From Nereocystis luetkeana (lineage: Eukaryota; Sar; Phaeophyceae; Laminariales; Laminariaceae): a DNA stretch of 64,000 nucleotides. The translations under genes were made by a program, and so were the position numbers. This document shows positions 3,787 through 57,474 of this stretch, piece after piece. The notes below the pieces were generated by a model. The model was not told the DNA's origin. It searched no databases and worked only from the letters and a program-made list of their open reading frames with translations. The number at the start of each line of letters is the position of its first letter. Position 1 is the first letter of the stretch. The stretch covers positions 3,596,001 through 3,660,000 of the forward strand of contig JARUPZ010000002.1 of assembly GCA_031213475.1 (NCBI GenBank). The letters run 5' to 3'.

Positions 3787-4240
3787 CATCAATATACTTC
3801 GTAATATTTTATTATTAGTACATACCGATGCATCTTTCAATACATCGGCCAGGTCGCGATCTATAGATAATGTACAGCGGCGCCCTTACTGAAGCTGTTG
3901 TCCAAGAACTGATTGATGAAGTATCATTCAGACCCCACCCCGGCAAACACGGTCAACGTAGAGCAATCGGGCAGAACTTGTCATCCCGGAAGGATCTACA
4001 CTGCCGTATACCAGGTATCTAGCATCTGCCAAGAAAAACCTGGTATATACAGTATCATAAACTGTTGCTCGGATATGATCGTTCCGAGATTTGTTCAATA
4101 ACTTTCTGGTGGTGTGGCTGGAGGTCGCGCGGTCACTTGGAGTCCCAGCAAAAGGTATGCCGTGCGTACCCGATCTCCCGCAATATTTTATTTCCTTGTG
4201 GGAACAAATTTCACCTCCAATGGAATTAAATTACGACTGA
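3787..4240. other. Noncoding gap
   Basis: No gene is seen. The interval contains one exact TACCAGGTA site at 4009 and a variant ACCTGGTATA near 4037. Confidence 0.5.
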
Positions 4241-5480
4241 TAAAGTAATGTTTGATATTTACTCCCATGGAAATATTTGAGCCATTAAATTTTAATACTT
4301 CCATGGAGAGAATCAAATTTTGTACTTCCACGGAAGGAACGTGTTCACTTCCGTGGAATTGAAATGGTATACTTCCAAGGAAGTAATGACCCGTTCTACG
4401 ATAGAGGTAGCACATTTCCGCTATTTTGTTTCTGAAAGACGGGGTTCCTTGACTCCAAATAGTCAGAATGCCAATTTTGATTTGAATAAAAAAAGGTTTG
4501 CAGACTCGGGCCATGATTTTATTGGCCCCGATGCAATTTGATTTTTGCTGAAGTCAGTTTTCGGGTGAGGTATGGAGCTCCTTAAGTGAGGAGCTTCAGA
4601 AAAATTATGGCGAATCTCTATCGTAGAACGCCTTTACTTTTTAGCTCCCAAAGGTTGGAAGTAAAAATCAACCATGGAAGTGGGAAAAAGCATGAAGATA
4701 TTATTTACTTCTGAAGTAACTCTTAATGATATACCTGGTATCCTGTAAACAATATATCCCATGGAACCTTTCAACAACTTACTTCCGTGGAAGCTTTCAT
4801 TAACTTTCATGGAAGAAAATGTACTTCCATAAAAGTTGGATTTTCTTCCTTGGAAGTTGTGTACAAGCTTCCATAGAACCTTCCTCCATGGGATATTCCA
4901 CCAATCTTCCTACTGCCCTACTCTCGCTTCGTAACTTGACCCCGCAGGGGACCCTTCCCAGTTGGCACCCTGCTCCCATCCACAAGGTGTAGGGATAAAG
5001 TGAGCCCCCCGCAGAAGCCACAGGGGGCCACCAGTCACCCTGATCCCGGAAACCATGGAAGGTAATTTACTGTACAAAAAATATACTTGTATAAGAGTTG
5101 AAGTAGTCCGTGGATGGAAGTAAGCAATCTTCCGATGAAAGTAAAACAACTTCCATGAAAGAAAGTATTTTGTTTTCTTGCACATTATACTCTCCTGGAA
5201 GTACGTCTGTGGAAGCTGGTGGAAGGGAAGGAAGTTCCTGAATTTTTGGTTGGTGAAGTTAACCCTTTTAGAACTGCAGTCCCATCACCGGGACGAATCA
5301 CGCAATTATAAAGTAGTTAAACCCCTAAACGTGGGTTATTGGCAGCTTCCACCAAACATGGTCGGTTGAGGAAGATTCGATTATTGGAAGTTGGTGGGAG
5401 TTGGACGCTTCCACTTCCGGCCACAGTGGATGTTTCGACGAACTTTCATGGAAGCAACTTTACTTGGAAGTACACCGTCT
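4241..5480. repeat. Irregular swarm of ACTTCC-GGAAGT palindromes
   Basis: More than twenty occurrences of CTTCC or GGAAG half-sites, many paired as ACTTCCATGGAAGT or close variants (central pair AT, AC, GT, AA or TT), are scattered at irregular spacing. The sequence between them is unrelated, so this is not a conventional tandem repeat. The swarm is interrupted by the MITE at 4392-4630. No open frame here looks like a gene. A TACCTGGTA site lies at 4732. Confidence 0.75.
4392..4630. mobile_element. MITE family C, full copy
   Basis: This element of about 239 bp has inverted ends CGTTCTACGATAGAG. Its length and inner sequence match the copy at 25153-25394, including the purine-rich GGAGCT-containing stretch near one end. 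It carries no coding capacity. It interrupts the ACTTCC-GGAAGT swarm, so it inserted after the swarm formed. Confidence 0.8.
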
Positions 5481-6372
5481 TTCGTGGTAAAAACAGAAGG
5501 AAGGGGGAAACATGTGGTGGACGCCAGCTTTGCAAAGAAAACGGGATGAAGTGGAACAAGCTACTATTAATTTAGTCGAGCATTTTATCGCGGATTTTCG
5601 GCGGAAAGAGCTCCTTCGGGTAGGGCAGAGGATAGGGTTAGTGCTGGGGTTAGAGCGGAGCTTCACGCGCATTGACAAACGGGCCGTCTCATATTTCTAG
5701 AACCCCACGGTGGCCGCAGGTCATCCCCCGAATCCCATACTAACACACTTGAGCACTGCCCCCACGTTTATGCGGACAAACTGCAGCACGCTTTGAATGA
5801 ATTGAAAATCTGGTTAAACGTTTGGTTTAGTATTAGGAGGCATGGTCAAACGGGGGCATGCCCCCGCCTTTTTAAACGAAACGGCGGCAGAGCAGGGGGG
5901 GGGAGGGGGGGGGGAGGGAAAACACGCCCGCGGGTGGTGCCCGCGTGTGCCCCAACCTGTCTCGAATATAATTATGACGCAGTGGCAAAGGCACTCACAT
6001 CCAATGCAGAGCACGCATACCCTTGTAGTTTTCGGGGGACCTTATTACGGCTGACGGCACTGTGGCGCAGGAGGGTATACTGGGGTCCACCCCCCGGACT
6101 AAAAGGGGGGGAGAGATATGTCCCCGCTAAGTATACAAACTTTACGGGTCACCCCTTTTTGACTGCCATTCCCCCCTCCTTCAGCCCAAAGCGTGGTCTG
6201 TATCTGCGATGTCAAGTTTTGGCCGCCAATACGTTATGAACAAACCCAGGGCTGAACATCGAAACCTCTTGGGGAGGTTGGGGCGCGCGCGGGCACCTTC
6301 TGCGGACGTACTTTCCCTATTCCCCAATTACGCGGGATACGGCGGAGTATACCCGCTTTTGACAAGTCCCTA
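5481..6372. other. Noncoding gap with G-run
   Basis: No gene is recognised. A G-rich tract (about 5890-5920) contains long G runs broken by single A residues, followed by GC-rich sequence with C/G runs. Open frames across this stretch lack any recognisable domain. Confidence 0.4.
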
Positions 6373-6476
6373 TTACGGGGGTCCATAGTAAATAGGACCA
6401 AATATTGTTAACAAAAATAGCGAAATATATAGGTTTTTGTGTGCACCGTATGTCCTATTTACTATGCCCCCCCGAA
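6373..6476. mobile_element. Mariner-type MITE family A copy
   Basis: A TA dinucleotide precedes TTACGGGGGTCCATAGTA; the right end (TATTTACTATG then a C run) has lost its last bases. The internal part (AATATTGTTAACAAAAATAG) is typical of the family. It lies about 380 bp upstream of the first recognised exon of the left GNAT gene. Confidence 0.8.
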
Positions 6477-6854: not shown

Positions 6855-9800
6855 GACCCCCAGATTGCTGAGATCACTCATACAGTTGGCAAGGCGTTCA
6901 AAGACTACAACGTTTCTATCAACGCTGCGCCGGAAGTGATCGAGGAGGAGTTTGAGGATCCCAAAATCGGTCCTCTGGCGGTATCGGGGTCAGTATCGCT
7001 GTCAGTATTGGTTGAGCGTATACACACGAAACATTGCCCTTCGCGCCTGAACATAGCCGACCAATAGTGGGTCCTACTGACAACGGCCAATAGTACACTG
7101 ACAAGTCTAGGGGCCAGCCACTGTACATATATGATACCTGGTATATTCGAACAGATCGGCTTCGCCGAGACGAGGCGGTGTTGCTATCGCTTCCGACGAA
7201 ACACCAACCGTCGCTGCCGAACAGAACAAGGCTGGCTTTCAATACATAACGTACGACACTTGTTCCCCCCCACGCGCGTACAAACCGCCACACCGCTTTC
7301 ACCACCGGTGCTTTCACGTCCTACCCGCAGTTTGTGGTGCTTTCCTCCGTCCTTAACTTCCTCACTCTCGTCATTGACTTCATTGCCACTCCGCCGCTAC
7401 CTCCATTTCGCCAGGATTTGCAACTCATTGGATGGCTTCGCGGTCACGAACGGTGACGGCGAGATCGTTGGCGTTACGTTCGTCGACGTGCTCGCCAAAG
7501 GTTCGAAGGTGGCTGTATTGGGCCCCGTCGCGTCTTTGGCCGCTGGCGCGGGGAAAAAAACCTTCATGGCGGCGTGTACTCACGCTGAGAACCTCGGCTT
7601 TTCGACCTTGGTGAGGGTAGGCGTGTTTCGAGACGATGCGGCCTAGAATGGTCTTGCCATTCATGAGGCCTTGTTGGGTCTATCCGCGGGTCTTCGTGTA
7701 CCTGTTCTTGTGTTTCCCATCCTGAGTACGGTGGTGATGGGCCAGATCCCTTACTTATTTACCTTTCCTCGTGTCCCGTGCTTGAACTTTCCACACTCGT
7801 GTATGGTGCTTGGTGCCTCGTCTGCTGAGGCAGGTCCTGATGCAAGTCGCGTCAAACTCCCGGTCGTTCTCCCTCTACGCCAAGCTCGGCTTCGAGGTGC
7901 GGTAGAGCCAGCTAGATGAACCCAGTGCGCAGATAGATGTATATAGCGGGCGTATGTGCTTCCCTCTGATCATCAACTCCTGGCTTTATTGATGGGTACC
8001 ACTCAACGTGTATTGATAGGCCTATCATGCCACACGGCGTGTGTAGCAGAAAGAATAGTTCACATAATTCACGACCACCCGTTGTTTCTGCTATACGATT
8101 GCGAGTCTGAATACCACCTACCCCTTCGCGTCACCAAACCGTTGTACCATAGCTTTCTTGCGCGCGCAAAGCACCGCAACCGTTTGATTGAGCGGAAGCG
8201 CATTCTAAGCCTACCCTGGCGCATGATCCTGGTGCCCCCCTACCCCGAAAACACCTCAAGTTGACGCGGACAACGTAGATATCCAGCACAGGCTGAGACC
8301 CCACCCCGTTCCCCCCCTCGCACAACGTTTTTAACCACCACAGGCGAAACACACGTGCCAGTACATTGGCGGGTTTCTGCCGCCTCTAGAATCATCATCT
8401 CCTGCTGCCGACACGGATAGCCTATCCTTGACGGCTATGACTTATGAAGACGTGCAGGAATGTACGGACCTGTTCCTTAGGGCGCACGGAGCAAACAACG
8501 GCTGGGACAGGAAGCCAGATATCACCGGGTTATTGGCGGCCGACTTTCCACTTGTGATGTGCGCGAGCAAGCACCTGATACCTTTGATTGAGTCCCTTGG
8601 GTGGTAAAAAACGAAAGCACACGATTTTTTCGCACGAGCCTCTTTTGCGGGTTGGTTGTAACGGTCTCCCGACATGAGTGAGGGTTGTGGCAAGGGCTGT
8701 GTACGATGAGCAACCAAGGCCAGGGAGCGCCTTGCAAAAAGCAGGCGGCGTTGCTGCAGTTTGTGGTATCCTAGATTTAGATAGGGCCCCTAACTCGTAT
8801 GATGGGCACCTGAGCGTTTCTTTTTCGAGAACCCAAAATGCGACGGATACAATGGCACCCAAAACGCAACCGGTAGCCACCGTAGTGTGGGCAATCGCCA
8901 CAATGATAATACTACCGTAACCACCAGGTATGGCACGCCGTAAAGTAGCTGCTCACTCATCTACGTATTCTGCGCAACTTCCCAACCCGGACCGTCGGCG
9001 AAACAGGCTGGTGGCTAGGGACGCTGATGGAAAGGTGGTCGGCTACAGCACAGGTATTTCTCTTACAGGGGACCGTATCAAACAGGACCCGCCATATATA
9101 TGTGCAAAAACCAATTTAATCCAGTATTTGTACTACCAATAAGCATATTTCGTCCAGATCACGATCTCCCCCCGTAATACATGAATAGCTTCGCGCGAAG
9201 AGTCGAGTCCAGTGTCTGGTGGTGTGGTAGTCCTCTTTGTTTCACCCGCGATGTCGCCCAAAGAGATTCACCGACCGGATGCTGTGTCGCGAGGGTGGAT
9301 AGCTCGGCAAGCGCTATTCGCGATCACACCAATGGGTTCTCAGCGTACGGTCTTGCCACGAAGATGGGGCTCCGATACGTGTTTTTGCTTGTGGTGACCC
9401 GGTAACGACTCGCGTTCTTGATCGACAAATAGGAGCGGAGGATTCGGTCAAGTTTGCGCACGGTGTCCAGATCTCCCTGTAGGGATGGCCGTGAAGACAT
9501 TATACTCATTTTTCTACTTGTGTCCGTGCCCTCGTCGTCCGTCTTCCTTGTTTTCCGTGCACGTCGTGCTTTGGGGTGGTGGCGGTGGTGACGGCACTAT
9601 GAGTCAAGGATTCTTCCTTTGCGGGCACCAGGTGTCGGTTTCGCAAGACGTGTTCTGCGCCATGTACACAGAAACGTCGAGGTTACACCAGGAGCGTGGG
9701 TTGCCTTGCCCAAGGTGCGTACAACACCTCTATCTCCTCTGCTGCTGTGCTGTGCATGCGCTTCCGGTGCGCGCGCCGATACAAAGAATACCGATACACG

Positions 9801-15949: not shown

Positions 15950-18900
15950 TCACCATCCCGTCACGCTCGGCGTCACCACCAACCCAGAACTGGGCCAGGC
16001 GTGCTCGTAGGTTCCCTTGGCCATGATGGTGGTGCCTCGGAATATCGTCAGCTTTTTCGCCAAGGCCCACGATATGAGCCCGGGGAACTCCATGGGAGCG
16101 TGAAACCTGCGGTTGAACGTGGTCATTGGGTAGAGTGGGCAGTTGTTAGGTTGACGCCTGATGCCGTAGCGGTAAAACCTACGGGAACATTTTTACATGT
16201 CATTTGTCTAGGATCGTCACTGAGCTCGAGGAAAATTCAAGCTAAGTCCGACGCACAACCTGATTAACGAATACCAGGTATGTAAAAGTGAAAAAAAATA
16301 GACATTGGATCCACAAAGATATTTGGGTATGGTTTGCGAGTTTGTTTTCAGTGGTGAAAGAGCCCCGTCCCCCAGAAGTGTTTAGGTCATGCTGCATACA
16401 ATCATGTGAAACCCCACTACCGGCCGCAACACGGCTCGGCTGGTCTTGCCGGCTGCCTTGCCTTGGCTTGGTGGACACACCGTACCGAGGCGTTCTTCAA
16501 AATGTTCATGTTCCGTCCACACTTCCGTAGCCATCAAGACACGGGACGGGTGACCGACCCTGCGTGTGCCTACTTCTCGGGTTCCTGCCAATCTCAACAT
16601 GATGGATTCACCCCACTCTACTGATGCTTCGTACCTTGGGCTAGGCAGCCCACGCTCTTGGTGCACGCGCGATGCTTCTTTGTACATGGCGCAGAAGACG
16701 TCCTGAGAAATCGACACCTGGTGCCCCATAAGGAAGAAGCCTGTTTCGTAGTGCCACCGCCACCGCCCGAAACCCCACACGCACGGAACAAGTCAAGGAA
16801 CGGTGTTTGATGAGGACGCCGATATACAAAACCGAAACGTGAACGTGCACCATTTCTGGCCACCGCAACAAAGTCCAGGCATAACGTAGGGGGAGCCTCC
16901 ACCTCAAACTCTTCGTTCATATTACTATATTATAAGGGACTCGTCGATGATGTATCAAAGCGCCCAGGTCGTCACAAGCCGGAATGAAACAAGATGTTAG
17001 TTTCCTTCATCTTCGGCATGATGACCAGAGCGATCATTGAACGGACGACGACACCAGCCAACCTTCACACGATATCAAGGCATTGTATCTGACGGTAAGA
17101 AATAGTAACGTGGGCGGTTTCGAGAGGTGTATCCAAGAAGAATATGACACCAGAAATCAAGCTTGTTCCAGTGCGCGAAGCTAACTTCGTGAGTAGTACC
17201 TGTGCTGTAGCCGACCACCTTTCCGTCAGCGTCTCTAGCCACCAACCTGTTTCAGCGACGATAGCGGGAAGGTTTCGTTGCATCGTGGATGAGATGAGAG
17301 ATGGCGTGCAGGGTGGGTCACGTGATCGCTACCGGACATTGCTTGGTGACTGTCAGCCACACCATCGTGGCTACCGTTTGAGTGCTGGCAGCTACCGGGT
17401 TTCTCGCATACTCTCAGACACTCGCGCAAATCCAGAGTGCTTTATCCACTACCAAATTCTTCACCGGCGAGTGCCTGCACGCGAAGGCCTTGATATCATG
17501 CACCAAGTACAAGCATACGCAGGCAAGCACACGAAGGTGGAGCGATCTTTGTTTCGGCGAATCCTCGCTGGACCCAACCCTGAAGTCGATAAATGCCTCC
17601 AACTGCCGGTTGTACCAATATTGCGCACACCTCAGCCGTGAATCTCGGTGCGCTACTCGCAGTTCTCTTCTCCCCCACGGCATGTACAGCTTACATGCCG
17701 TGCGCGCTACAAACAAAAAAAAGCTCACATCGCAAAAGGAAAGCCGGCCTCCAGCATCCTGGCGATATCTGCCTGCCGATCCCACCCGTTGTCCGCCCCG
17801 TGCGCCTTGAGGAAAAGTTCCGCGCATTCCAGCACGTCTCCCGCGGTCATAGGCGTCAAGGACGGCCCACCCTCGTCTTCAGTGGGAGCCGAGGACCCTG
17901 AAGACGGTAGGAATCCGCCCACGTACTGGCACGCGTGCTTCGCCTGGCGCGTGGTGGCAGGGAAGGGGGGGGGGGGGTGGAGGGTAGGCTTGACCCTAGA
18001 ACGATATTCGCTGCGTTGTTGACGTCAACGAGTCGAACGTTTCGTGGGGGTAGGGTTGCACCTCTGTAGCTTAGGGGGGGTCCCCTAGCTTGAGGAGCTT
18101 TTGTATCTAACCTGACCACCGATTTGCAGATACAATGAACAAGTTATCGCGGTGAAAAATCCCTTGACATTTAATAGATACATCACGAAAATCCTGTTTG
18201 TACAACACCATCCGCTGAGTTCCAGTGGCATTGGTAATAGTGTCATAGTCGAGAATCCCACCTCAACCAGAAACCCTTCGGCCAGAAGGTGTCACCACCA
18301 TCGAAGCACGCCCCAGTATTACACCCAGACACCTATTAACCCCTGTAGAACCGCAGTCCCGTTTTGGGGACAAGCCAGTTTAATTTCCAGTAGTTTTGTC
18401 CCCAAAACGGGACTGCGGTTCTAAAAGGGATTAATACGACTCGACCTTGGTTTGGCGTAGATCGGCGTGTAGATTGCGGGCCAAGCTATGTATATACCTC
18501 GTGAAGCGTTCTAGTCATTTGTTTTTTTTGTCATTTGTTTGGGCACGCACCTCGTGTTTTAATGCGAGTCTTTAGAATCCACGCAGCAGACGAGATCATG
18601 CTGCTCCCGTATCGGAACACAGAGAAAACAGGAGAACCAGATCTACACCACATACGCGTATTGCGAGACGTATACGTCCGTACTTACGGCCAGGCTGGCA
18701 GATAGTGCCGTTCTGGTTGCGGCAACATTCGCAGCCAAACTGCGGTCTAAAAGGGTAGTGTACAGACACGAGCAACCCAGTGGTCGCCCTTGCGCTGAAG
18801 CAACCGCTAAAAATAACCCCCGCACCTCGAACCCGAGCTTGGCGAAGAGGGCGAACGACCGCGAGTTGGAGGTAATTTGCATCAGAACCTGTGGAACATA

Positions 18901-20000: not shown

Positions 20001-20983
20001 CTGGTACGAAAAGATATAACAGGCATACCGTTGACATGTTGAGGTTGGGGGGGAAGGGGCATGTAGTGTTGAAGTCAGATTCGTATATCACAACAGCAGT
20101 CAACGTCGGTCATGTGTACGTACTCGAAGGAAGTAATGCAGCAAACAGAAACGACAATACGTACATATACGTACCAGGTACGTAGAGTTTACTTGTAGCA
20201 GGTGCCGACCTGTTTCCGTTCAAGCCGGGTCCAAACAAGAGCCCCTACGCTGCGTTCCTGCCGCGTTTTGTCGTGATATCGCGTTTCATATCAAGGTCCG
20301 ATGCTCATCATGTTTATCCCTTGACCAATCTGGAACTACACCAGGGAGAAAACGGGTCTTGTAGGCCCGATTTACGTGACAGAGGTCATCCAATACGCGC
20401 AGACGAAAAGGGCGCAGACAAGTACATCATGCCACTGCAGGGACTCCTCGCGATCGTTCTAGGCTCGTCGGCTGAAGAGCTCCAAACCTGATACATAATA
20501 ACCACCCAAGAACTAACTTGGAGAAGAGTTCATGTATATTCAACTGTAACACCGGGATGAAATTGTAGGGCACAAGCAGGATCAAGCCGGAGTTGTACAG
20601 AAGGGAGCAAGACTTTATGCATACCAGGTAAAGCTTTTTTTGCTCCACGCGTGTTGTTTTTCAGGAGTGACTATGAGTGATCAACGGTGAAGCTCGTGCT
20701 ACACATTAACGGATTGCAATAGTGATACTACTACCGTCGCGAAATGTGCCCCCGTGTTTCATGACTGAAACACAACGCAAAACATACCAGGTACTCAATC
20801 CGAGAACGCAGAAGGTGCATGAATACATACCTGGTACTCTATACCAGCACGTATGTATTTACATACGTATGATATACGACGTAGACGGTACCTGGTATAC
20901 GCGTAGCGCAATAAGTTGAAAAAAAAAAGGATGATTGATATATAAAAAGTGTGATATCCATGTGGTTTGTTTGGAGCCTATTA
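20001..20983. other. Intergenic with TACCWGGTA cluster
   Basis: No gene is recognised, although the 5' end of the right GNAT gene must lie somewhere here. Exact TACCAGGTA or TACCTGGTA sites occur at 20172, 20622, 20785, 20828 and 20889, continuing into 21031 and 21196. This is the densest cluster of the motif in the window. Confidence 0.6.
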
Positions 20984-21096
20984 TTACGGGGGACCATAGT
21001 TAACAGGACCTATGGTATACATAAAAAAACTACCAGGTATATATTTAACCATGTTTACGAACAATATTTGGTCCTATTAACTATGGCCCCCCGTAA
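20984..21096. mobile_element. Mariner-type MITE family A copy with inner TACCAGGTA
   Basis: TA flanks both ends. The left end TTACGGGGGACCATAGTT and the right end AACTATGGCCCCCCGTAA pair almost perfectly. The middle has TACCAGGTA at 21031 where sister copies read ACCTATATA or ACCTACATA, so the 9-mer was gained inside an existing MITE copy. It has no coding capacity. Confidence 0.9.
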
Positions 21097-21561
21097 TAAT
21101 AGTCTGTGGCAAGGATGTATCAACATGTTCAACCGAGGTGACGAATTAATGTGATAGAATCGACATCAACTACAGCAGTAGTATGACTATATATATACCA
21201 GGTATAGATGTACAGCAGTCATCAACAATAAGTAGTTGGAACAGACTGTGTATCACGTTTCAAATCGATGACAGGCTGCTTTGTGACCGTCAAACTGTCA
21301 AATGACGAATGACCACGCGAAAGAAGCAAACGTTTCGCGCCGATGCCCACCGATGTTTCGCGTATGCCCACAAAAACTCTTCGAGAAATAGGAAGCGCAG
21401 CTGTTCATAGCGGTGCAGGCCACCTCGAACTTGATCACATAGAAGCGACAGTAGCAATGGCAAGGGGTGTACACGTAAGCGCGCTGACTAACTGCTGGCA
21501 TGTAACCGCTGACCTGTTTTTTACGATAGACGCTGTAGGCGTTGAACTTGCAGCTATATTA

Positions 21562-21666: not shown

Positions 21667-23050
21667 TAGTAGCGACACAGTTTTCCACCTATTCAAATAC
21701 TCCGTATTTTTTTTACAGTTAACACAAACGGCTATATACATAAATTGAGGATTTGTGTGATGTCTCGTTCGAAACTAGGTACTGGTGTATCTTATGGCGG
21801 CAGCGATATCTATCTGCTGTGAGCTTAGACTGGTGTGTAGTGTGCACCCGTCTACTGGTATACTGGTGTTTGTGATTCTTCCGTTGCACGGACCAGACGA
21901 AAACACTGGCTCAATATTAGCTGCTATACACGTACTCGCGCGTAGACTACGAGAACTACTTGGAGTAGTACAACTGCATAGATCGCAGAGCGAGGCAAAT
22001 GTTGCGCTACTTCGACTGCTACAGCAGTACACTACAACTACTGTGCTGCTGCAGGACTGCTGAACTATCACCACGTACTACTGCTGCTGCTGCTGTATGG
22101 GCTGCCCGGGCGGCACCACGCGTTAGTATTAACAGTTACCTGGTAGTTGCTATTACTAATTGCATGGTCTCACGTGCTGGTAGGTACGAAAAAAACGGGA
22201 AAATACAAAAACCGTTGAATTAACTCCTTAACCAAGCGCACGAGCTCCATCGTGCGGTGAATGGCCCTACATATGGAGGGGCGGTCGGCGCAAAACTTTG
22301 TGCAGGATGCGGGTACTGTTGGGCACGGCTGGCCTTTCGGCCGCACGAATGATTTTTGGATATACGCGATCTAAACAACGTGGCGGCGCCGCGTGACTGC
22401 CCCAAAGCTAGGGATGGAGTTCTGATCATGGTTAAGGTTAGGCCAGGGGTCGCCTTGGTCTTGGCTGGCGCGCGAAATCGGAATTCACGACACGTCCTAC
22501 ACAAGTTTAGTGCCGACCAGTACGGCGCCCTCTTTTCATTATTCCCCAACGACGCCAATCAACCCTTCCCCTCTGGCGCTGAAAGGCCCTTCGATTTGCG
22601 CGCGTAGCAAAAAGCGAGCCCTTTGGCGTCCGTTTCGCCCTCTCAGCCAGGTGAGAAAGTTTCAGATCTCTAAACGGCAGTAGTAGGTATGTAAGAAGCG
22701 GGCATGCACGCGCCGACCTCTTGACAGTTTGGTAAACTCCTGCACTTGGGGCGGCCGCACGAGCCCTCGAGCAGGCCACTCGGCAGGCCCTCCCCGGGTG
22801 AGGTCGAGGCAGGCGGGCACGGTAAAGGCGAAGAAGACCCACCTCGCGCCGATCAAAGGGCCTCGAAGCGCGGAGCGCCCTCGGGATTCGACAGCAGTGG
22901 TGTGCCGCTGTGACGACATTCATCTGTGGTATCATTTTATACTAGAATTTTACATATTGCCAAGGCTTCCAAATAAAATATTTCCGTGTGTGTACGTACG
23001 TACCAGGGGCACAGACGAGCTACTGAACGCAACTACCACAAACAATTGCT
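21667..23050. other. Intergenic, nothing recognised
   Basis: A GC-rich block (about 22500-22900) gives overlapping open frames on both strands, rich in Arg and Ala, without recognisable domains. A CTGCTG-rich stretch lies near 22080. One TACCTGGTA site is at 22137. Confidence 0.4.
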
Positions 23051-28700: not shown

Positions 28701-29085
28701 GCTCGTTCATTTTATCGAAGGTCGCTTATATAACTCGCGCTCTCGTGCTTTCGGCTAAATCAATATACCTGGTACCTGGTATTAAATTTTAATATTGTTC
28801 ATGAAAGAATAAGTCCTCACAAGTACGGATGCACTCGGTGAGGCTCGAATCCACGAAATTAATCTTATGATACCACTGTGATAGGGACGCGGACCACCTA
28901 CCTAGCCACCGGCGACGCCGGTTCGTTTGTACCAGTATAAATTGCTGAATTGTGTATCCTGCACGAGGCCATACAAAACCCCTTGTATAGAATAAGCAAG
29001 CTCGATCGAAGTATCAGACACAGGTTGCAAAGATGAGTTTCAACCAAACCCTCGATCTCACAGCTGTCGTTTTGATATTTTATTA
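25701..29085. other. Intergenic, a few coding-like stretches
   Basis: No gene is recognised. At about 26174-26260 a plus-strand stretch after CACGCGCAG encodes CDRCKRCNKVFEAFSD, with a CxxCxxC pattern, then a stop. The same frame stays open from there to about 26550 with an Arg/Leu-rich stretch. Neither has an identified family. Frames at 27420-27821 and 27840-28320 show no domain. TACCTGGTA occurs twice in overlap at 28766 and 28773. Confidence 0.35.
28825..28915 (-). ncRNA. Possible tRNA-like promoter pair (SINE head or decayed tRNA)
   Basis: Read on the minus strand, TGGCTAGGTAGGTGG fits an A box and GGATTCGAGCC approximates a B box about 45 bp later, the spacing found in tRNA genes. The acceptor stem does not pair, so this is not a working tRNA gene. 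It may be the head of a tRNA-derived SINE or a coincidence. Confidence 0.3.
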
Positions 29086-29181
29086 TTACGGGGGGCTATA
29101 GTTAATAGGACCAAATATTGTGCGTAAAAATAGGTAAATATATACCGGTAGGTTTTTGTGTAGACCACAGGTCCCCCGTAA
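29086..29181. mobile_element. Mariner-type MITE family A, internally shortened
   Basis: TA precedes TTACGGGGGGCTATAGTT and follows CAGGTCCCCCGTAA. The right arm lacks the CTATTAACTATGG part found in sister copies, so about ten bases were lost. It lies in a stretch (CTCACAGCTGTCGTTTTG) that resembles 48910-48940. Confidence 0.85.
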
Positions 29182-30335: not shown

Positions 30336-30439
30336 GCCACTTACAAGTATTGTTGCTGGTATTGATGGTCTTAATATTTATCTCTGTCGCGTACCTGGTA
30401 CCTGGTAGTTTTTTTACCACACAACTTGCATCTCTCTAT

Positions 30440-31040: not shown

Positions 31041-31244
31041 CACCTGCGGGGAAGCCCGATAATTTATTTTTTCGCGTTTCCTTATTTTATTCTCTTTCGA
31101 TTCGGTCTTCGGTTTCAGGGATGTATATCAACTCATAATCACGTGTTGATTATGATTAATATCTGGTGATTCATTTTAGTCATTCATGTGATCATATTTT
31201 GCTCATTTAATGATTATTAGTCAAATACCAGGTATTGATTATTA

Positions 31245-33569: not shown

Positions 33570-33800
33570 CTCCATGTACTCGTAGCCGCAGCAGCTTATG
33601 GTACGCGTACTTAGCATAGCTACGTTATACCTGGTACCTACGAGGAAGTCTGTCTGGTAGCTTGCTACCCTGTCTGCTGTCTCCATCTCACTTTCATCAA
33701 CTATATCCCACACCCGGAGAGGATGCGTTACGCAATACGAAACGAAGCAAAGCAGGTTCGTCATCCACTTACGAAACAAGACTGAAGAAGAACAAGACTC
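33570..33800 (-). repeat. Dispersed repeat H copy
   Basis: On the minus strand it reads GACGAACCTGCTTTGCTTCG, then GGAGACAGCAGACAGGGTAG and CATAAGCTGCTGCGGC, in the same order as the copy at 42290. A TACCTGGTA site at 33628 interrupts the unit. Confidence 0.65.
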
Positions 33801-35938: not shown

Positions 35939-36480
35939 CCTTGATCCCAACAGGAACCAAAATACCTAAACAGCCTTCCAACCCAAAAAGCCATTCTCCC
36001 AGATTGCAATGGGACCTCTGTTATCTTCGGGAGCACATATTTTCATCAGCTTGGAAAACAATGTGTACCTCTACGCCCGTAATGTCCGCATTTTTTATGT
36101 ATGTGCGCTGTTCATATTAATAGTAAGCCGTTCTTTCTACCGTCGACATCCGACATCTGCAACCTCGGGTATTCTTTACTCTTCATACCTGGTACTGGTA
36201 TATTTTTTTCCGCTTCAGGATTAGAGTGCTGTGTCCAGTTTTCGCCTGAACCAATGATTCCCGAACAAAATCCGAGATTCCTGGACTACGATACGACCGA
36301 ATTTGTTTAGGTAGATTAATTTAACTTTGGTCACCAGGTGATCGTAGATCGTATAAATACCAAAAAAAATGCGTGAAAAAGAAGCTGTGAGATCGAAAGC
36401 TCAAGTTTCCTTAAAATGATTAATAGTTATATACGATACAGAATTGGTGTGATAATTCGATCGCGCGCTCTGCACTGAAA

Positions 36481-37962: not shown

Positions 37963-38057
37963 GAGTCAAGGAGTCCGTCCTCACAACAAGAAAGAAGGTG
38001 TTACGTACGGCCCTAGGAAAATCCGGAAAACGATGAAAAAAATACCAGGTACCAGGT

Positions 38058-38262
38058 GTGTGTGTTCTTCACATTAAACCGTTCTTTCTACCCGTCGACA
38101 TCCAGCACAACCAGTGTCCGTGCCGATTCTTCAATCCTAGAAGAGATAGATGTTCTGTGGTCACAAAGCTACGCCACAGAGATACTACGATGCCACGTGT
38201 GCAGTATGTATGCATCGCAGTGGGCAATGCAAAGCCATGTCATCATACTAGATACGACATGC
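38058..38262 (+). repeat. Dispersed repeat E copy
   Basis: The full unit runs from GTTCTTCACATTAAACCG to CATCATACTAGATACGACA. It is preceded by TACCAGGTACCAGGTG (from 38043) and fused at its end to headless SINE body. Confidence 0.8.
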
Positions 38263-38959: not shown

Positions 38960-39300
38960 CTATGGTATCTGTGTGTGAGTTCTTCACATTAAACCGTTCT
39001 TTCTACCCGTCGATATCCAGCACAACCAGTGTCCGTGCCGATTCTTCAATCGTAGAAGAGATACAAGTTCTGTGGTCACAAAGCTACGCCACAGAGATAA
39101 TACGTAGCCGCATACCAGGTACCAGGTATGCAGTAAGCACTGCGGTGGGCGATGCAATGCCATGTCATCATACAGGCACGACATACACAATCTATGAAAT
39201 AGGGAAACGAAAAGAAACAATCAAAGAGAAAACAGAAACAAAGCAGACAGATCGAAAGAGAGAAATGAAAAGAGAGAAAAAAAATGAAAGCAAAAACTAG
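38960..39300 (+). repeat. Dispersed repeat E copy
   Basis: The unit is in forward orientation with an A/G-rich end (GAAACGAAAAGAAACAATCA). TACCAGGTACCAGGTA at 39113-39128 interrupts the stretch that in other copies reads from ATACTACG into the GCCACGTG region, so the tandem 9-mer arose inside this copy. Confidence 0.8.
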
Positions 39301-39895: not shown

Positions 39896-42180
39896 TAAAT
39901 ACACGTTCTATGAAAGAGAGAAAGACCGGAGTACGTGTATACGCGTACTCGTTTCAGACTCGCATCATCGGCGTATCGCGAATAAGAATCAATGATGTTC
40001 CTGCACATGAAGGATGTTGCTTGTTGAAAGTTCGACGTTTCATAGAGTTAAACGAACGTCGTTGGGTAGAAAAGCGTTCAGAAAAATGCGAGAACTACTG
40101 CATAGTTGGATACGTTCTTTGGATGCAGCTCGTACCAGGTTACTCGTACATTAATATGAATAGTACTTACTGTACCAGTACGCACCTGGTGTAAACATTG
40201 CGGACTCGTGTCACTTTAAATAATTCAAACATTCAAATATTTCATGGAACATACACAAGCATAGAGCGCGTTTGTTCGAAGCTTCACTGCCACGTCGAAG
40301 ACTCGACTCAGAAAAAAGTACCAGTAGGACGCCGTACCGTTAGATTTGAAGAGCTCTCACGAGAAAATGAGTTTTCGATATCGCAAATAAAAACTTAGCG
40401 GTGTCTACTGCCCGACAGGCGACTTCAAAGGCAACGCGTGGAGAATGCAACGGGCGGATGAATGAGGGGGCAACTGCGGCGTCCCAATTTCCGATCCTCG
40501 GCGCCTGAGTACACCCCCCTCCCCGCTCGTGCAAAGTATATACAGTAGCCACAAGACGTAGACGTGCACGGTTCCGTCCCTTCCTCGTGCTCTAGTCGTG
40601 TGTACCAGGTACCAGGTATCAAATACGCACACGGGGATGTACATGCATGCCTGGTGCTAAAGACAGTTTCAAATATAAAGTAAAAAGCATTCAATACTGA
40701 CAGAGTAGCACACCAGCAGTAGTAGTAGTGGTATTGCCTGATGTGCCAGGTGTTTTTGCTTGCAAGCGCAGTCTGTGGCCAGCCAACAAAGGTACGCGGT
40801 CAATCAAGTGCGTACGGTAGCAATCCCCCACAGGCAGCGGAACTTCGAGTACCAAAGCAAACACGTTGACTACCAGGTAAAGATGCAGCACAAGAACAGC
40901 TGCATGAAAAAGGCCGTAGAGCAGAACACGTTCCAGGCATCGAGAGCACAAAAGCACCGAGAGTAATTTGCTGCCGATTGGAGAGCTCTGGGGCAAAGTG
41001 ATTGATATTAAGCCAGAGTTATTACAGTACTAAAGGGCCACCACAAGTAGAGCAAGCCCAAAGAGGAGTGGTGTTGTTGCAGTGGGAGGCGCCAACAAAA
41101 ACTCCTCAAGATTTGCCGCTGTAATATAAGCGCGAGGGCATTTTGGAGCACCCGATTGACCTCCCGGACTCCCACGCACTGATACGCCCATCAGCATCAC
41201 GTGTGCTCCCCCATGTAAATTTATGTACGGTATCTAAAACGATCGACGGCAAGACTTGGATTTGCTTTGAGCGGCGTGTCCGCATCTTATTCTCCTTGCC
41301 TTGCGAAAGCTGAAAGAAAAGAAAAAAAAAATGTGCAAGCCCGACCTACTCGTTTGGCGTCGGAGGCTATAGGACAGGAAACGTACAGGGCAGACAGCAA
41401 TTAATTGGTTCCTTTACGGCGGATATAGACCTCCGTGCTGCTCTCATCGCTCCAGCACTAGTGTATTCCCTCACCCTGCCACAATACCGTTAGCAGGCGA
41501 TCTACTGAACTTAGGTATCCTGGTGTATCTGGGTGCTGTTGTCCTTCTCACATTACCTCATCGCCACAACACCACGCTGATCACGCGACTCAACCTTTCG
41601 ATGCAGCTGAAAGAGCAAGCAAGATTTGTCACCAAGAAACTCACCGTCACAGTCTTGGGGTCAAGCATCTGAAGTTGCAGATCTCCCGACATTGTCAACC
41701 CGGCGAGCACGACGCAGACAGAGTGCGGGGTGGTAGTGTTTTTTTTTTTGTTGGGCTTCCAGAAAGCGTAGCTCGAGTTCTGCCACGACTGCCTGCGACT
41801 GCCGGTGTTGTGAGTGGGATGTCCACAGAAATACGCGAGAAAGGTCAGACCACCACACAACACACCAGTAACCAGCAATAGCAGTGACAGAAAGAGAGGA
41901 CACGAACCACGACCAAAAACCGGGTTGACCAAAACAGAATCCGGATGTCCGGGTTTAACGTTACCACAGTACTCCGTAGACAGCTACTCGTACACAGAGT
42001 ATACGACTGATGTACAAGAACGACAGAACAACCAGGGGAAAAGCGGGGGAGTTCATCCTGAGAATGATGTGACATCTGACATCTGACCATCTATTAACAA
42101 TAGGATAGAATGGCGCGTAAAGTTGACATAATAATACGTAAATACGCGTTGTCCAAAACACAATAGAGACAAGTACGTAC

Positions 42181-43045: not shown

Positions 43046-43775
43046 CGAAAGTATATTGAACAAAACCTAAATACACACAACTATTAATGCTCGTAGTGTC
43101 GTACGTGCGATAAATCCGTTTTTTTTGTGCGAAACTAATTATGAAAATAACGAAGCACAGATCCTCGCAAAATACAGTTCATACTTCGACAATGACACGT
43201 GTATCTCGGAGAAAAAACAAAAGCGTATACTGGCATATTTAAATTATTATTTCTCTTGCCATCCGACAATGTGCAGCACATGATCTTCATCGTATTCGCC
43301 ACAACGCAGTCAGAGGTCACAGGGCAGGCTCGAATATCTCAGGAGAAGAAATATTGCCTCCAGGGAGAGAAAAAACTATCAGTACTAAAAAATAAAAAAC
43401 GGACATGCGTAAAACACACATACTGCTGCTGTGAGACAGCCTGCTTTGCAGTGGATGAAAAAAATCGTATCTGGTACCTGGTATGTACCACGCGCAAACA
43501 AAAAAAAGCGAGATGAGCATACGTACGTATCGCATGCGTATCGCGTACACACGTGCGATACGCTGTCGTACGAGTCGCAACCGAAACCGAGAATACTGTT
43601 CACGCCCCGGGAAAAAAAAAAAAAAAAAAACGGAATCAAAAACAGATCCACGTCGAAATTCAAATCGAAATCGAACATCCAATATGGCAAAATTCTGAAG
43701 GGCTATCAGAACCGGGTTTTTTTTGTTTGCCGAAAATCCGAGATTAACTCGACGGGACTGTCAAAAACACAAGTA

Positions 43776-48245: not shown

Positions 48246-49094
48246 TTCGTTGAACTGGGGTTTATAAGTAATTCCCCTTCGTTCATCCAGAAGGACTTCA
48301 TACATGCATAGATATTGCCAATCATTACTACCAAAAAACAACGTAAACCCCTTTAGGGTGTCTCTCGTTTGCAATATTATAGCTTCTACCCTTCTTTTCC
48401 CAATCCCCTTGTAATCCCCGCCACCCCCCGAGCACCTACTACACCTGCTGCTGCAAGAGCCGAGTCCCCATCCCCAAGTTTTTCCAAGAAAACGTCGAAT
48501 GACAATCCGCTATGCAGTTAACTAGCCGGGTGGACTGCTGTGCGCAGGTTTCAACGCGTGGAAGCTTGTGCGGTGTAGTTGCCCATATTGAGAGTAGTTT
48601 AATACTGCGAGTACTAAAGTTACCAATGAAATGGGCGAAAAACTACTACCAGTACTGTAGTACTTCTAGTGCCCGGAGCACACAACTCTGAAATATTTGA
48701 CTAATCCCAGTATTCCACAGCAGTATCGAACTCGCATACTTCTAGTCCGACATGTCGAACTCAAGCTATTTCGAGTACTCGCATATCCGTGGTAGTAAGT
48801 CAAGTACCAGGTATATATGAGACAAGTGGCCAAAATCAGGTACATTTCTATTTCAGAGACCGCAATGGCCCCAGGGCCTCCTCTCATTGGGCAGTTAGGA
48901 CGGAATCCTCGACCTCACAGCTGACGTTTTGTAATTTTATTGATGTTATGTAAACCCCAAATACTGCGCGCACTGTTTCCTTCCCCCTCGCCGCCATCCG
49001 TTTGCCGGTACCCTCCACTCTTTCTTGTTGCGCCGTCCGTGCAGCAGCTAGCTGTTCCTCTCCTTGCGTATCTGGTCTCTGCGTCATTTGCATT
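48246..49094. other. Intergenic, nothing recognised
   Basis: No gene is seen. One TACCAGGTA lies at 48805. The stretch near 48910 resembles 29045-29075. Confidence 0.4.
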
Positions 49095-50038: not shown

Positions 50039-50445
50039 ATGTGATATGGAGTAGTATTGAACTATAAAATTGTCATGGGACAGCCGTAGTATCAAAGCCC
50101 TGTAACACGCGGAGAGTATTTCCGGGGCTCTGAAGTTTCCCTTGCAGCGCAACGGTCAGGATAGCCGCTAGGAGAGTAGACAAGCGCCCGAGGAAAGTTC
50201 CTCGGAAAAGTGTATTTACCCGTTTTTAGCGGACAAACAGAAGGAGAGCAGAGTGGGCTTGATGCTTAGGATCAAGCCCCTATAGGACCACTCTCACCCT
50301 GCCATCTCCCATCATGAAGAGGACTACCTGGTACAGTAATGCAACAGCACAAGAGGTCTCTTGATCAAGAGAAGCTGCCTTCCTAGCCAGTTCTGGTAGT
50401 TCCTGCATTCTATTCCCTTACCATGATACTCGGGTGCTGGTACAC
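50039..50445. repeat. Direct duplication, right copy
   Basis: This is the partner of 49419-49799, about 620 bp downstream. It carries an extra stretch near 50190-50225 and a TACCTGGTA site at 50325 that the left copy lacks, where the left reads AAAATACAATAAC. Confidence 0.75.
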
Positions 50446-52959
50446 CACTTACCGCGTGATTGGCGGATGATATACGGCACGGGCTCAACATGATACTACC
50501 CGAACTGCCTAGGGCTCGTACGATATATAACCCCAAATCATTATGGTTTTGGTCGCGATCTCGGTATCCCATAGGAAGACGACGCACACACAACTTCAAG
50601 TACCTGCTGTGGTTTCTCTCCAAAAATTGTTCGTGAAATTTATCCAATCGGGTTTCGGCGAAGAACTTTCGAAATACAACGAATTAATTGCAAGATGAGG
50701 CAACCATTTTCTCGAATTTCGTGATCATCAGGGGTGAGCGACCAGTTGCTATTTTGGATATTGTTTTTGTTCACCCACTCTAAAATCGAGTAAGTTACAT
50801 ATTTATATTGTCAAGAAGAGCCTAAATCAACTGATTTGTACAAAACTTCAAACAAATGTATCGAGAAATAACGTCTCAAATCGCATGAATAAAAAGGTTA
50901 TATAGATCGCCCTGATGCCCGCATAACATTTTGGAAATAGAGTTGAGCTTTGATGCACACTTTCACTTTTTTTTTTTGCAGAATAAAAAAATAAATACCG
51001 CCGGGCCGCTGTATTTGCTACACCGTCTGTCCTACTACTGCATGCAGGACAGACAAATCGGAAAAATGGGAACGAAGCCTAAAATGAGAACCAAGCCGTA
51101 TCTCCAGAACCATGTGGTGTATCAGAGAACCAAAATGATCCTGCGAAACCCCTTGGCCAGCCCTGTGAGAGGAGCTCGTCAGAACGGTCATGCTCCATCT
51201 CGTGCCTTCGGGTGGGCGCAAAAAGCGATATACGCTGGCTCTATTGTGATTTCTCTAGATGCTGGCTACCGCGGCGATGCCGAGGACTTCCAGCCTGAGC
51301 GACAGCTCATTCGAAGGCTGCTGTACAGCCCCACAGGACTGTCAACTTTTTTTCTTGGAGTTGTACACAATTGGTTTGCATTCTCAAAAAAACCGTCCGT
51401 TCCCTTTTTTTGTTTCGTTCCCATTTTTCCGTTTTGTTGTGTACAGTGCAACAATTAGATCCGCCCTTCCCAGCACTCATCTTCGCCAGGGCCTGCACGA
51501 CGAAGCCGACGATACACGTTGACCCCGACCCATAGCAAGCGGCGTATTCAGCAACGTCGACCACACGCAGGTCCATGTAGTTGGACTACACACGACGGCA
51601 AAGCATACACCAGTCGAACGCATTCATTCTTCGTCGTTATTGGTCTACTCCGCCTTGACAAGCCTCCCTCCACCTAATAGTATTCTGGTCTCCTGAAGCA
51701 ATCAACTCAATACAACGGCGTTTCTATCTGCTTTTCACACATACGTTTCTACCTCTCCTGATAGCACATACACCAGCTGCCAAAACACGTACACGAACGC
51801 ATGGGTACAACAATATACTTGGATATTGTTATTGCCCTCGATGAAATGCATTCGAGCGCTGTTCTCAGTTTGCTTGTCTTTTTTTCGTGAAGTCGCAGTA
51901 GTTGGAGTTGGTGGGAGTGTGGAGAGAGATCAGTGGGCACCGGCACAGACGGCACCCCAGCAGGCGGGGTTTGGCTCTCGGACTGAACGCCTGTTTCTTT
52001 TCCTTGGAAACCCAAAAACAAAAGGCTCGCGCTTCACGCTCGCGCGCCTCATTTGTAAAATACGGTTACTACATTAGGGGACAGAGTGGTATGCCAGTAC
52101 AGCAGTGCGATAGCACGGCGGGAGCAGGACGCCCCACCCCCCAACAGCCATCAATAGGTTGTGGTTTGCCTGGTCCATGCGGCGATGATATATACGGGGA
52201 GAGCGCGCCTGTTTGTCTATTATATATGTACCAGGTATAATATCGTAGAATGTCTCCCCTCGCCTCTGAGAAAAGCCCACACGGCTCGACAGTTTGAATA
52301 TGACAGGCACACCAAGACACTGGAAATGCTTGAAATACTCCCTGTAAATGTTGCAGCAGATCTTGATGTACCAGCACATGAGTATGCGTACGTGTTTAGT
52401 TTGTGAGTGACAGTCTCACTATCGCACATACATGTTATTGGCCTCTTCTGCTCTTGATATTTGAAAAACGCAGTAGTATGCATACACCTGTAAGATTGCA
52501 GAGGGTGGGTGGCCCAATAGCAGGAGGTGATATTCGTGATTTCTGTAGGCAGGCTACTAGCGAGTGGCGCATTTTGATCCTACAGCTCTTTATTTCTTAA
52601 ATCGGGGGGACGAAACAGTTATACGAGGGTAACAAATTGATCAACAGAGACGAACATACATGTATGTCTGTACTACACAGAGTATTGGAAGGTAAAAAAA
52701 GCGAACTACTTTCCGTCTTGAAGTTGATGCGAATTAGACTTTTTCGTGCTGCTAGACTACTAAAAACTGGTAAAAAGTAGTGATGGGGCACCAGACTCTT
52801 TTACGCCCTACTATTAATAGTATTAATATTATTATACTGGAAGAGTGGGAATGACGAAAGTGACAGATCTTGTAGATTGTCATTCCCATTGAGACATACA
52901 TGCTTGTACGCACGACGGTTACAAAGTAATCAACACTCACGATAATCGTGGTCGTACTA
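50446..52959. other. Intergenic, one long unassigned frame
   Basis: The plus-strand frame 50931-51458 (175 codons) is the longest here, but its phenylalanine-rich ends and lack of any domain make it doubtful. The minus-strand frame 51576-51307 has some protein-like composition (DLRVVDVAEYAACYGSG) without an assignable family. TACCAGGTA is at 52229. Confidence 0.3.
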
Positions 52960-54540: not shown

Positions 54541-54850
54541 GTGACATCATAATATTTTGGTACATGGTGTGATGGTACTACGCGGCTTGATATATACCAG
54601 GTATACTATATGGAACAAACACGGTATGAGTTGTGGGATATGTTGGTGGTATGGTATATGGGAATATGGGAAAACCACGTTATGTGGTACGGTATGTGTG
54701 GACGATATGGGACGGGAAAAACACAGTATGGTACGTTTGCGACATGGTACCATGGTACGATGTCGTGGTTGTAATATATGGCTAAATTTGCCTTGTGGTA
54801 TGGTATGTTTCAGTATATAAGGTCCGTATGGTTCGAATACGTGGTACGAA
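54541..54850. repeat. GGTATGG/GGTACC-rich tract
   Basis: Short motifs TATGGTA, TATGGGA and GGTACCATGG recur irregularly, resembling the swarms at 4.2 and 47.5 kb but with a different core. TACCAGGTA is at 54595. Confidence 0.6.
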
Positions 54851-56530
54851 TATCATCTGTAACGAGCTTATATATCGGCCATTGGAGAGTGTTCGAAAAT
54901 ATAAGCCTTGCGGACAGACAGACAGACAGGCAGACAGACAGATTTGCCTTTACTAAAACAGAGACTCAGTTCTACAAACTGAGAATATTTCTAGATCAAT
55001 ACAGAGGGACGATGATACCACTCATTTCGCCGTCCGTGCATCCGCAGACGACAACCAAACACCAGTCTGCATCAATGACCCATCAGTGACTGTTGCTGCG
55101 AAGTTTGTACCTGTTTTCAGCACACATGTCTCCATCTCCTTCTACAGTAGGACGTGTTATACAGCAGCGTTACACACACGGGTACACAGACCCACAATAC
55201 CTGGTGGTTACGAAGCAACAACGGTGCTCACACGCGTGCACGAACGCACGTTTACGAACAAGCATCTTGCAAATGTTACACATACATCAGAAGAATGACG
55301 ACAATGCCACACACTTCGCAGTCCGCAAACCCACGGCAGACAACATCAACACGAACACCAGCCTTCCTCGATGACTTATCAGTCCTTGTTGCTTACAGTA
55401 CGCGACAGCAGTTAAGAAACTCTCATTTTGGCTAAGGCTCGGGGCTTATTCCCCCCCCCCGATTTGAGCATAAATGCTTAAATAAATCCATTTTCTTATT
55501 TTGCGATCGGATGCAGAACACCAAATTCTTAATATCAAACGATTTTTTCTACGAAGGAGTACAACGCGAGATGCATTTCTTCGGAGGTTGCGAAAAGACA
55601 TGAATTACCACACAGGCCTCCACCCATCCATGATGATGATGAAAACCAATATCAAGAGATCAAACGAAAGGCTTGAGGACTACAGACACCAACGCCCATG
55701 TTGCCCGTTGTCAAGGACCCCATGACCGTACCACTGCCGCTGCATATATATCTGTACTTCCCTATCCGGAACAGCCGTTCAAGCTGCAGTAGTACGTGAT
55801 CTACGTTACGCCCGTTAGGCGTCAAGGTTCTCCCCCTACTGCTACAGACAGCGGGGTTTCCTCCGGCAGCTGAACCTCCCAACTGCCTGTTCTGCCCGCC
55901 CCCTCCGACTGCTGCACTCTCCCTCTGCCCTTCCTCGTTTGGCTGTATGTAGCAAAACCCACGCACCCACCGCCGCGCTTGATTCCGCGCTGTATGCACC
56001 TAGCGGGAGTTTCAAGCTACGCACGCGTTGGTCCTCTTCAAGGTGCACACGATAGTCGTACAAATCTTTGGTCCGCTCTTGACTCTAGCGAGTGATCAAC
56101 CCCCCAAACAACTCCATACTTAGTATCACTAGTACTCCGCGATTCACTGAAGAACCGTCTAGAGCAGCTGTGGCCTTGACTCTTGCAGGCGAAAACCATC
56201 CGGAATCGCCATGCCGACGGTTTCATCCTCCGGGGGCATGTCGTCGTCTTCGTCCAGCAGTGTGAGCGGATCTTTCCCGATGTCAGAAACACTTGCACGT
56301 AATACGATATAGTATTGTACCGACAAAATGGTCCCAGGTCATTTCTGAAGCAGCCCAGAAAAACAAAAGGGCGTACGAGCATAGTATTCCAAGTGATGCG
56401 AATAGATAATTTATTGTAACTCAGTATTCCTGAAAACAGAAGATCAAAAATTAGGAACATTCCTGCCAAACGTTTTCGATACCCGTGAAAGATCTACTCA
56501 CAAAACCAGCACATAAAGGACACCACTTAC
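54851..56530. other. Intergenic, one coding-like stretch
   Basis: (GACA)n lies at 54913-54942. On the minus strand about 56300-56165 encodes DIGKDPLTLLDEDDDMPPED and then GMAIPDGFRLQESRP before a stop; this looks coding but I cannot assign it. Other frames show no domain. Confidence 0.35.
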
Positions 56531-56914
56531 TTACTTACACGCGCTGAAGCAAACGACAATAATAGCAGTAAGAAAACAATGCATAAAATCCCTTTCACCG
56601 TCACCATTTCCCCAGCTGTCCTCGTCTTCCTCCTCGCTGTCCTCGTCCATTTCCTCGCTGTCCTCGTCCTCCTCCACGCTGTCCTCGCCTCCCTCCCCGC
56701 TGCTCGCGCCCTGCTCCTGCCCTCCTTCCTTTTCCTCCCCGCCCCCTTCCCCACCAGTTTCGTCCCCAACTCCTTCCCCCACCTTTTTCTCCCCGACACC
56801 GTCTTCATCCTTTTCCTCACCAGTTCCTTGCCCATCCTTTTCCTCCCCACCCACCCCGCCTCCTCCGTCCTCATCGTCGCTCGCACCGTCCATGAAAGCC
56901 AAAGGCTTCGTCAA
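56531..56914 (-). CDS. Hypothetical acidic protein with hydrophobic C-terminus
   Basis: This open frame of 127 codons starts MTKPLAFMDGASDDEDGG. It continues as a Glu/Gly/Asp-rich low-complexity region of about 95 residues, then DSEEEDEDSWGNGDGERDF, and closes with the hydrophobic FLTAIIVVCFSACK. The repeat-like CCTCGTCC tract on the plus strand could create such a frame by chance. If real, it would be an acidic tail or C-terminal exon. No family is recognised. Confidence 0.3.
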   Translation of the reverse strand: MTKPLAFMDGASDDEDGGGGVGGEEKDGQGTGEEKDEDGVGEKKVGEGVGDETGGEGGGEEKEGGQEQGASSGEGGEDSVEEDEDSEEMDEDSEEEDEDSWGNGDGERDFMHCFLTAIIVVCFSACK

Positions 56915-57474
56915 CCCCTCTAATAATGCTTTTTTACGTAAAATTTTGGGATAAAACGTACTGGATTACCTGGTACACTACTTTTTACCGGTACAGTATT
57001 TCACAGAAACAAACAGTTATAAAGTCGATTTTGGGGAGGAGGCAGCTAGGTTGGGTGCCTGGTGCGGCCTAGAGAGGTAGGTGTTTCGGCAGTTTCTTAT
57101 TCTTCTGGGCTGTAGTGCATTCTTGTAGATTCTTAGTTGCCTACCAACTTGCACTTCTCGATTTCTAATTATTATTTCTCCTCGAAGGTCAGCACAAAAT
57201 CCTAGTTGTAATTTTCAAGAAACAAACGTAAAAATTTAAGGCTTAAAATATCAACACCTACATTCTTAACTAACTGCTGTCGCGTTGCCGCTGCAAGTAA
57301 GTCCCAATAGCACATACATGGCATGCCGGTAGGTAGTTCATACGAGTACGTTCTTCTATCAATCAAATAGGAGTATCCACACATCCACAATCAAGCTTGC
57401 ATAGATAGAAACACACACGCACGCCATGAATAATTGTCAAGTAGCTTGCGTATCTCGCCAGCGATCTGATACTA
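56915..57474. other. Intergenic, nothing recognised
   Basis: A TACCTGGTA site lies at 56967. No frame or repeat family member is recognised otherwise. Confidence 0.4.

Follow-up and report, generated by a model that had tools for sequence, protein, structure and literature searches.

For comparison with the word described here, the closest known systems include Sleeping Beauty and Frog Prince, whose excision footprints are tabulated as C(A/T)GTA (PMC3878927, Table 1), that of Sleeping Beauty being printed elsewhere as TAG(T/A)CTA (in a passage of PMC2874221). The Tc1/mariner element ZB is described, in a passage of PMC7913693, as preferring ATATATAT around TA. In this report we focused on the 9-mer TACCWGGTA (W, A or T) in a stretch of 64,000 nucleotides from Nereocystis luetkeana (contig JARUPZ010000002.1, positions 3,596,001 to 3,660,000), hereafter the window, to which all motif counts, sister searches and element searches were confined. 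We consider it probable that each copy of TACCWGGTA is the excision scar of a TA-targeting cut-and-paste DNA transposon with termini 5'-CCWGG, for which a Tc1/mariner relative is the likeliest candidate source.

The observation from which this reading starts is the abundance of the word. All 32 exact copies counted in the initial annotation are present at the positions given there, against a mean of 0.41 and a maximum of 3 in 100 dinucleotide-preserving shuffles (none of which reached 32) and an order-3 Markov expectation of 0.56. Since tandem doubles TACCWGGTACCWGGTA, each made of two overlapping copies, occur at 28766, 30392, 39113, and 40603, the 32 copies represent 28 separate loci, or about one per 2.3 kb. 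TACCWGGTA is the second most abundant 9-mer in the window, behind the A run alone. Among words in which a W-centered palindrome with arms of 1 to 3 bases is enclosed by two TAs it ranks first, followed by the shorter TACWGTA (14 copies) and TAAWTTA (13), all other 9-mers of this form having at most 4 copies each. Nine palindromes that differ from it in their outer or inner bases, taken as controls, occur 0 to 4 times each, the two that reach 4 being TAGGWCCTA, which we read as part of a family of miniature inverted-repeat transposable elements (MITEs), and CACCWGGTG. One-base variants, initially thought to be frequent in general, are so in part: among the 22 single-substitution neighbors outside the center, TACCWGGTG or its complement (7 versus 1.24 expected under the order-3 model) is clearly in excess, as is the center-less variant TACCGGTA (4 versus 0.70). 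The central base of the exact copies is A in 18 and T in 14, and never C or G.

TA is the sole direct repeat that bounds the 9-mer, and the only one possible there, which is why on the footprint reading TA is the target duplication and CCWGG the remnant of the element. In the mechanism that we infer, the transposon would insert at TA and duplicate it, both of its terminal inverted repeats (TIRs) beginning 5'-CCWGG (CCAGG or CCTGG). Cleavage by the transposase would fall exactly on the element border for the 3' ends but five bases further in for the 5' ends, so that each flank would retain TA and, beyond it, a 3' overhang CCWGG of 5 nt. These overhangs would anneal at four of their five positions, C-C-(A.A or T.T)-G-G, and repair of the central mismatch would settle on A or T, with TA-CCAGG-TA or TA-CCTGG-TA as the product. 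A center that is A or T, without C or G, is what would be predicted for a resolved A.A or T.T mismatch.

The flanks of the loci, although largely unrelated to one another, share a target preference. Once joined to a bare TA, 20 of the 28 loci read RTAY (R, purine; Y, pyrimidine), compared with 35% of 3436 background TAs (binomial p 9e-5), with a purine on the left at 23 loci and a pyrimidine on the right at 23. Pooling of both sides shows an excess of A or T at -7, of A at -6, and of purine at -3, a palindromic AT-rich preference around TA as in the IS630-Tc1-mariner superfamily. The RTAY preference fits an element with a two-fold symmetric target, whereas a protein-bound site would not need it. 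The loci are also unevenly spread. Under a null in which TA sites were sampled with RTAY weighted threefold, the seven loci at 20172-21204 form a significant cluster (p 0.0006 for seven within 1.1 kb), which would fit local hopping, mentioned for most DNA transposons in a passage of PMC3878927.

The second line of evidence is that the motif was gained relative to repeat copies that lack it. The 120-base flanks of all 28 loci, with the motif either intact or cut to a single TA, were compared with the rest of the window. No similar flank was found there at E 1e-4 for 16 of the 28 loci, and a repeat sister spans the site at six (21031, 30392, 30836, 33628, 39113, and 50325). Excising the motif in silico raises the match to scar-free sisters at all six, and the claim that sisters lack the motif stands at these six of the 28 loci. 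The opposite holds for two MITE sisters, 29174 and 3696, which match the intact version better because both copies carry their own scar variant. The loci 30836 and 33628, members of a single repeat family, are scarred at different points of it, therefore representing separate gains.

The length of the insert was examined in a chosen sister set by removing 0 to 21 bases at nearby offsets (631 choices, of which up to six of the best were listed per comparison). At the 30392 double, removal of 14 bp at the TA is best against 4/4 sisters tested, with none better among the 631 removals, and at 30836 a 7-bp removal is likewise unsurpassed against sister 42340. A single bare TA stands at the junction in the sisters at 30392 and in 42340 at 30836, other sisters being less clear. 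The comparisons do not point uniformly to a 7-bp insert. Compared with two other sisters, 30836 gives best removals of 5 and 8 bp. At 39113, all three sisters tested favor 14 bp, but with the removal placed upstream of the predicted edges, the edges thus being exact at one of two 14-bp doubles (30392). At 33628, better fits come from removals of 5 or 11 bp at other points, and the sisters leave the length undecided. At 21031, each length from 5 to 9 bp is best against one or another of six sisters, the predicted 7-bp removal scoring 1 to 6 points under the best; scar-free sisters of this locus lie at 57470, 21557, 60852, 43773, 52959, and 6371.

Two of the repeats cited in the initial annotation are weaker examples than they seemed. 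The duplication at 50039 has a sister without the motif (49595), but a 12-bp insert fits best at 50325. The MITE at 20984 has scar-free sisters, but 3 of the 10 copies of its family are scarred at the same TA. This MITE-like family is about 113 bp long with inverted ends TTACGGGGGACCATAGTTAATAGG or close, and one of its copies, 9060, is much diverged and too far to judge for a scar. Because three of ten copies share the scarred TA, some scars may have been inherited. In a poorly supported tree of the family, two of the three scarred copies have a scar-free copy as partner (support 0.85 and 0.62), which hints at repeated insertion at one favored TA.

Beside these uneven insert lengths and shared MITE scars, other results weigh against the footprint reading. 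A full-length element with CC..GG termini at TA, as envisaged in the initial annotation, was not found: no element bounded by TA-CCWGG...CCWGG-TA appeared in the window among half-motif pairs with matching inward sequence, those obtained coming down to an inverted duplication (36.5-37.5 kb) and to weak pairs linking scars. A scan of 137 of the 174 stop-to-stop open reading frames (ORFs) of at least 98 amino acids detected no DNA-transposon transposase at E 0.01, the other 37 as well as shorter and intron-split ORFs having been left out. The core of the footprint, at 5 bp, exceeds the 2-4 bp stated for Tc1/mariner in a passage of PMC7913693; the passages on the pogo-type element Passer in PMC9976928 and on overhangs in PMC3878927 give footprints of 0-4 bp and overhangs of 2 or 3 nt, respectively, and a 5-nt stagger would lie outside the ranges described for TA-targeting elements. 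Clustering is weaker at other scales (p 0.02 for 300 bases and 0.0036 for 2.5 kb), and gaps under 500 bases show only a slight excess (p 0.05-0.07). With no element with such ends, no transposase, and two weaker repeats among those cited, the footprint reading is partly supported. It is also, as first proposed, the best fit to the sister gains, the W-only center, and the two-sided target preference.

Some of these results would suit a source outside the IS630-Tc1-mariner superfamily, namely a cut-and-paste transposon that targets TA with a 5-nt stagger and belongs to an undescribed DDE group or uses another kind of recombinase. The 5-bp footprint and the lack of a Tc1/mariner transposase in the 137 of 174 ORFs scanned would both be expected of such a source, but the TA target, the AT-rich two-sided preference, and the W-centered footprint resemble Tc1/mariner as portrayed in the passages cited above, and we consider this source unlikely.

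Several other candidates were tried and rejected. An apparent full-length element at 36596-37453, with ends TA-CCAGGTGTTTCAG on both arms, has arms that run on outside (36525-36638 with 37411-37524) and a SINE-like block (SINE, short interspersed nuclear element) inside each; 36525-37524 is more plausibly an inverted duplication in which one old scar, TACCAGGTG, is present twice. A large inverted duplication noted at 36500-37545 has a SINE-like block and this old scar variant in each arm. In an inverted pair at 109 and 4407 starting CCTCTATCG, the match extends outside and the ends are not CCWGG. Short pairs such as that at 4009 and 4039 are expected about 0.4 times by chance (rough arithmetic). 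Restriction followed by fill-in would give TACCWGGCCWGGTA, of which there are 0 copies.

The doubles fit independent excisions poorly. Besides the four exact ones, three loci (36186, 38043, and 43475) were read by eye as decayed doubles. Re-insertion adjoining a footprint has been reported in grasses (in a passage of PMC1925063). Chance revisits of one TA would produce 0.20 doubles among 32 events, and 0 of 5000 simulations gave four. Furthermore, the two center bases are equal in 7/7 doubles, the decayed ones being judged by eye, whereas independent repair predicts half; in the four exact doubles alone, all with equal centers, the chance probability is 1 in 16. Equal centers suggest tandem copying in one event. 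In viral contigs, the double motif occurs in 9 unrelated stretches that hold the double itself and nothing more, bar one extra copy in one of them, and there is therefore no enrichment in them.

These equal centers, in three decayed doubles as in the exact ones, also argue for a process without any transposon, in which CCWGGTA units would be added at TA by end joining or a polymerase, as tandem 7-bp units that were never part of a larger element. That no element with such ends was found in the window agrees with it. Such templated insertion would leave unexplained the TA bounds on both sides, the palindromy, and the near-equal use of A and T, and we judge it improbable. We know of no process adding TA-bounded palindromic inserts of this kind and, to our knowledge, there is no mechanism for a free-standing mobile palindrome.

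Selection for a protein-binding site or for CCWGG-type methylation, an explanation also raised in the initial annotation, is disfavored, and we regard it as very unlikely. A near-palindrome with a W center is indeed what many binding sites look like. Of the 144 CCWGG in the window, 32 lie in the TA...TA frame and 112 outside, and these 112 show no excess over the approximately 125 expected for the whole window (uniform base composition, rough arithmetic). The motif was moreover gained as an insert in repeat copies, MITE debris included. That the count merely reflects the copy number of one or a few dispersed repeats, for which the three MITE copies with the same scarred TA and the presence of TACCAGGTG in both arms of the inverted duplication might be invoked, is hardly credible given the 16 loci without a similar flank and the scar-free sisters at the six spanning loci.

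If the scars are indeed those of a transposon with CCWGG ends, the 28 loci of the 64-kb window may be a dense fossil record left by a highly mobile cut-and-paste element with a 5-nt stagger, whose scars far outnumber its resident copies, which revisits or tandemly expands its own scars, and whose excision has re-edited the genome on a very large scale. This wider picture is tentative, and our confidence in it is slightly less than even. Should the copies be excision scars, a short word would count past transposon excisions genome-wide even with the element gone, and excision footprints would be a notable source of 7-bp insertions in the genome. For TA-targeting transposases, a 5-nt stagger would extend the cleavage geometries described so far, and mismatch repair at the break would be readable from the ratio of A to T in the center. 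Searches of open-licence papers turned up no report of such scars.

Putative excision scars, all given without strand, and copies of the MITE-like family in the window
Feature	Position	Strand	Remark
scar TACCAGGTA	4009..4017		exact; CCTGGTA at 4039, possible aberrant excision remnant or chance
scar TACCTGGTA	4732..4740		exact
scar TACCTGGTA	7135..7143		exact
scar TACCAGGTA	16272..16280		exact
scar TACCAGGTA	20172..20180		exact; opens cluster, 7 loci in 1.03 kb
scar TACCAGGTA	20622..20630		exact; cluster member
scar TACCAGGTA	20785..20793		exact; cluster member
scar TACCTGGTA	20828..20836		exact; cluster member
scar TACCTGGTA	20889..20897		exact; cluster member
scar TACCAGGTA	21031..21039		exact; cluster member; within MITE copy 20980-21098
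scar TACCAGGTA	21196..21204		exact; closes cluster
scar TACCTGGTA	22137..22145		exact
double scar TACCTGGTACCTGGTA	28766..28781		exact double
double scar TACCTGGTACCTGGTA	30392..30407		exact double; 14-bp gain versus sisters
scar TACCAGGTA	30836..30844		exact; 7-bp gain versus sister 42340
scar TACCAGGTA	31226..31234		exact
scar TACCTGGTA	33628..33636		exact; repeat family shared with 30836
scar TACCTGGTA overlapping TACTGGTA	36186..36200		probable decayed double
scar TACCAGGTACCAGGTG	38043..38058		probable decayed double
double scar TACCAGGTACCAGGTA	39113..39128		exact double; has spanning sisters
double scar TACCAGGTACCAGGTA	40603..40618		exact double
scar TACCAGGTA	40871..40879		exact
TATCTGG then scar TACCTGGTA	43468..43483		probable decayed double (exact copy at 43475)
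scar TACCAGGTA	48805..48813		exact
scar TACCTGGTA	50325..50333		exact; sister at 49595 without motif
scar TACCAGGTA	52229..52237		exact
scar TACCAGGTA	54595..54603		exact
scar TACCTGGTA	56967..56975		exact; last exact scar, none beyond 56975
center-less variant TACCGGTA	29143..29150		in MITE copy 29084-29185 (minus), same TA as 21031 scar
decayed scar TACCAGGTG	3721..3729		in MITE copy ~3692-3787, same TA as 21031 scar
MITE copy	3692-3787		MITE-like family
MITE copy	6371-6482		MITE-like family
MITE copy	9060-9180		MITE-like family; much diverged
MITE copy	20980-21098		MITE-like family
MITE copy	21557-21668		MITE-like family
MITE copy	29084-29185	minus	MITE-like family
MITE copy	43773-43882		MITE-like family
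MITE copy	52959-53066		MITE-like family
MITE copy	57470-57582		MITE-like family
MITE copy	60852-60961		MITE-like family

The putative scars lie in a window with 112 ORFs of at least 100 amino acids, the longest of 401, and tRNA and Rfam scans of it gave no match. Several other repeats were noted. The block at 44089-44470 has a tRNA-like head (A/B-box-like by eye, the tRNA scan giving none), a body, and a poly(A) tail, and with related blocks at 36630-36970, 37222-37430, and 38255-38475 it looks like a SINE family. A second palindromic repeat family (AACCGCAGTCCCGTTTTGGGGACA...) has seven copies listed, in 18332-18425, 23161-23254, 29360-29453, 37872-37965, and 39406-39788. At 25407-25615, units of about 42 bp are repeated in tandem, their core resembling AGTTGCGCAGG. 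Ty3/gypsy-type remains at 62511-63910 show weak rve and chromo matches under curated cut-offs, and one match to Integrase_H2C2 was obtained among the 137 ORFs scanned. Along with the ORF lengths and the empty tRNA and Rfam scans, these remains give the window a eukaryotic appearance. A weak PIF1-like helicase match at 59300-59857 (E 0.0011, under the curated cut-off) is perhaps a Helitron remnant. Probes for the MITE, the SINE, and the second repeat had 0 matches in viral contigs, where the integrase fragment had no relative either, and the second-repeat probe had 0 matches in genome contigs.

Comparison with known systems highlights similarities and differences. The inverted repeat of the mariner element Mos1 begins CCAGGTGT, which agrees with CCAGG and TA, and the footprint that it leaves measures 3 nt; the 137 of 174 ORFs scanned here for transposase contained no mariner sequence. 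Stowaway and Osmar5 in grasses are alike in that TIR fragments of 1-4 bp stand between duplicated TAs, and unlike in that their footprint sequences vary, whereas one 5-bp core recurs at 28 loci here. Sleeping Beauty and Frog Prince, as presented in the table and passage cited at the outset, share with the putative scars a TA target, a TA kept on both sides, a short palindromic core, and an A or T center, the W center being common to both printed versions of the Sleeping Beauty footprint. The main difference is that their core is 3 nt, compared with the 5-nt CCWGG described here, which amounts to one base pair fewer per side.

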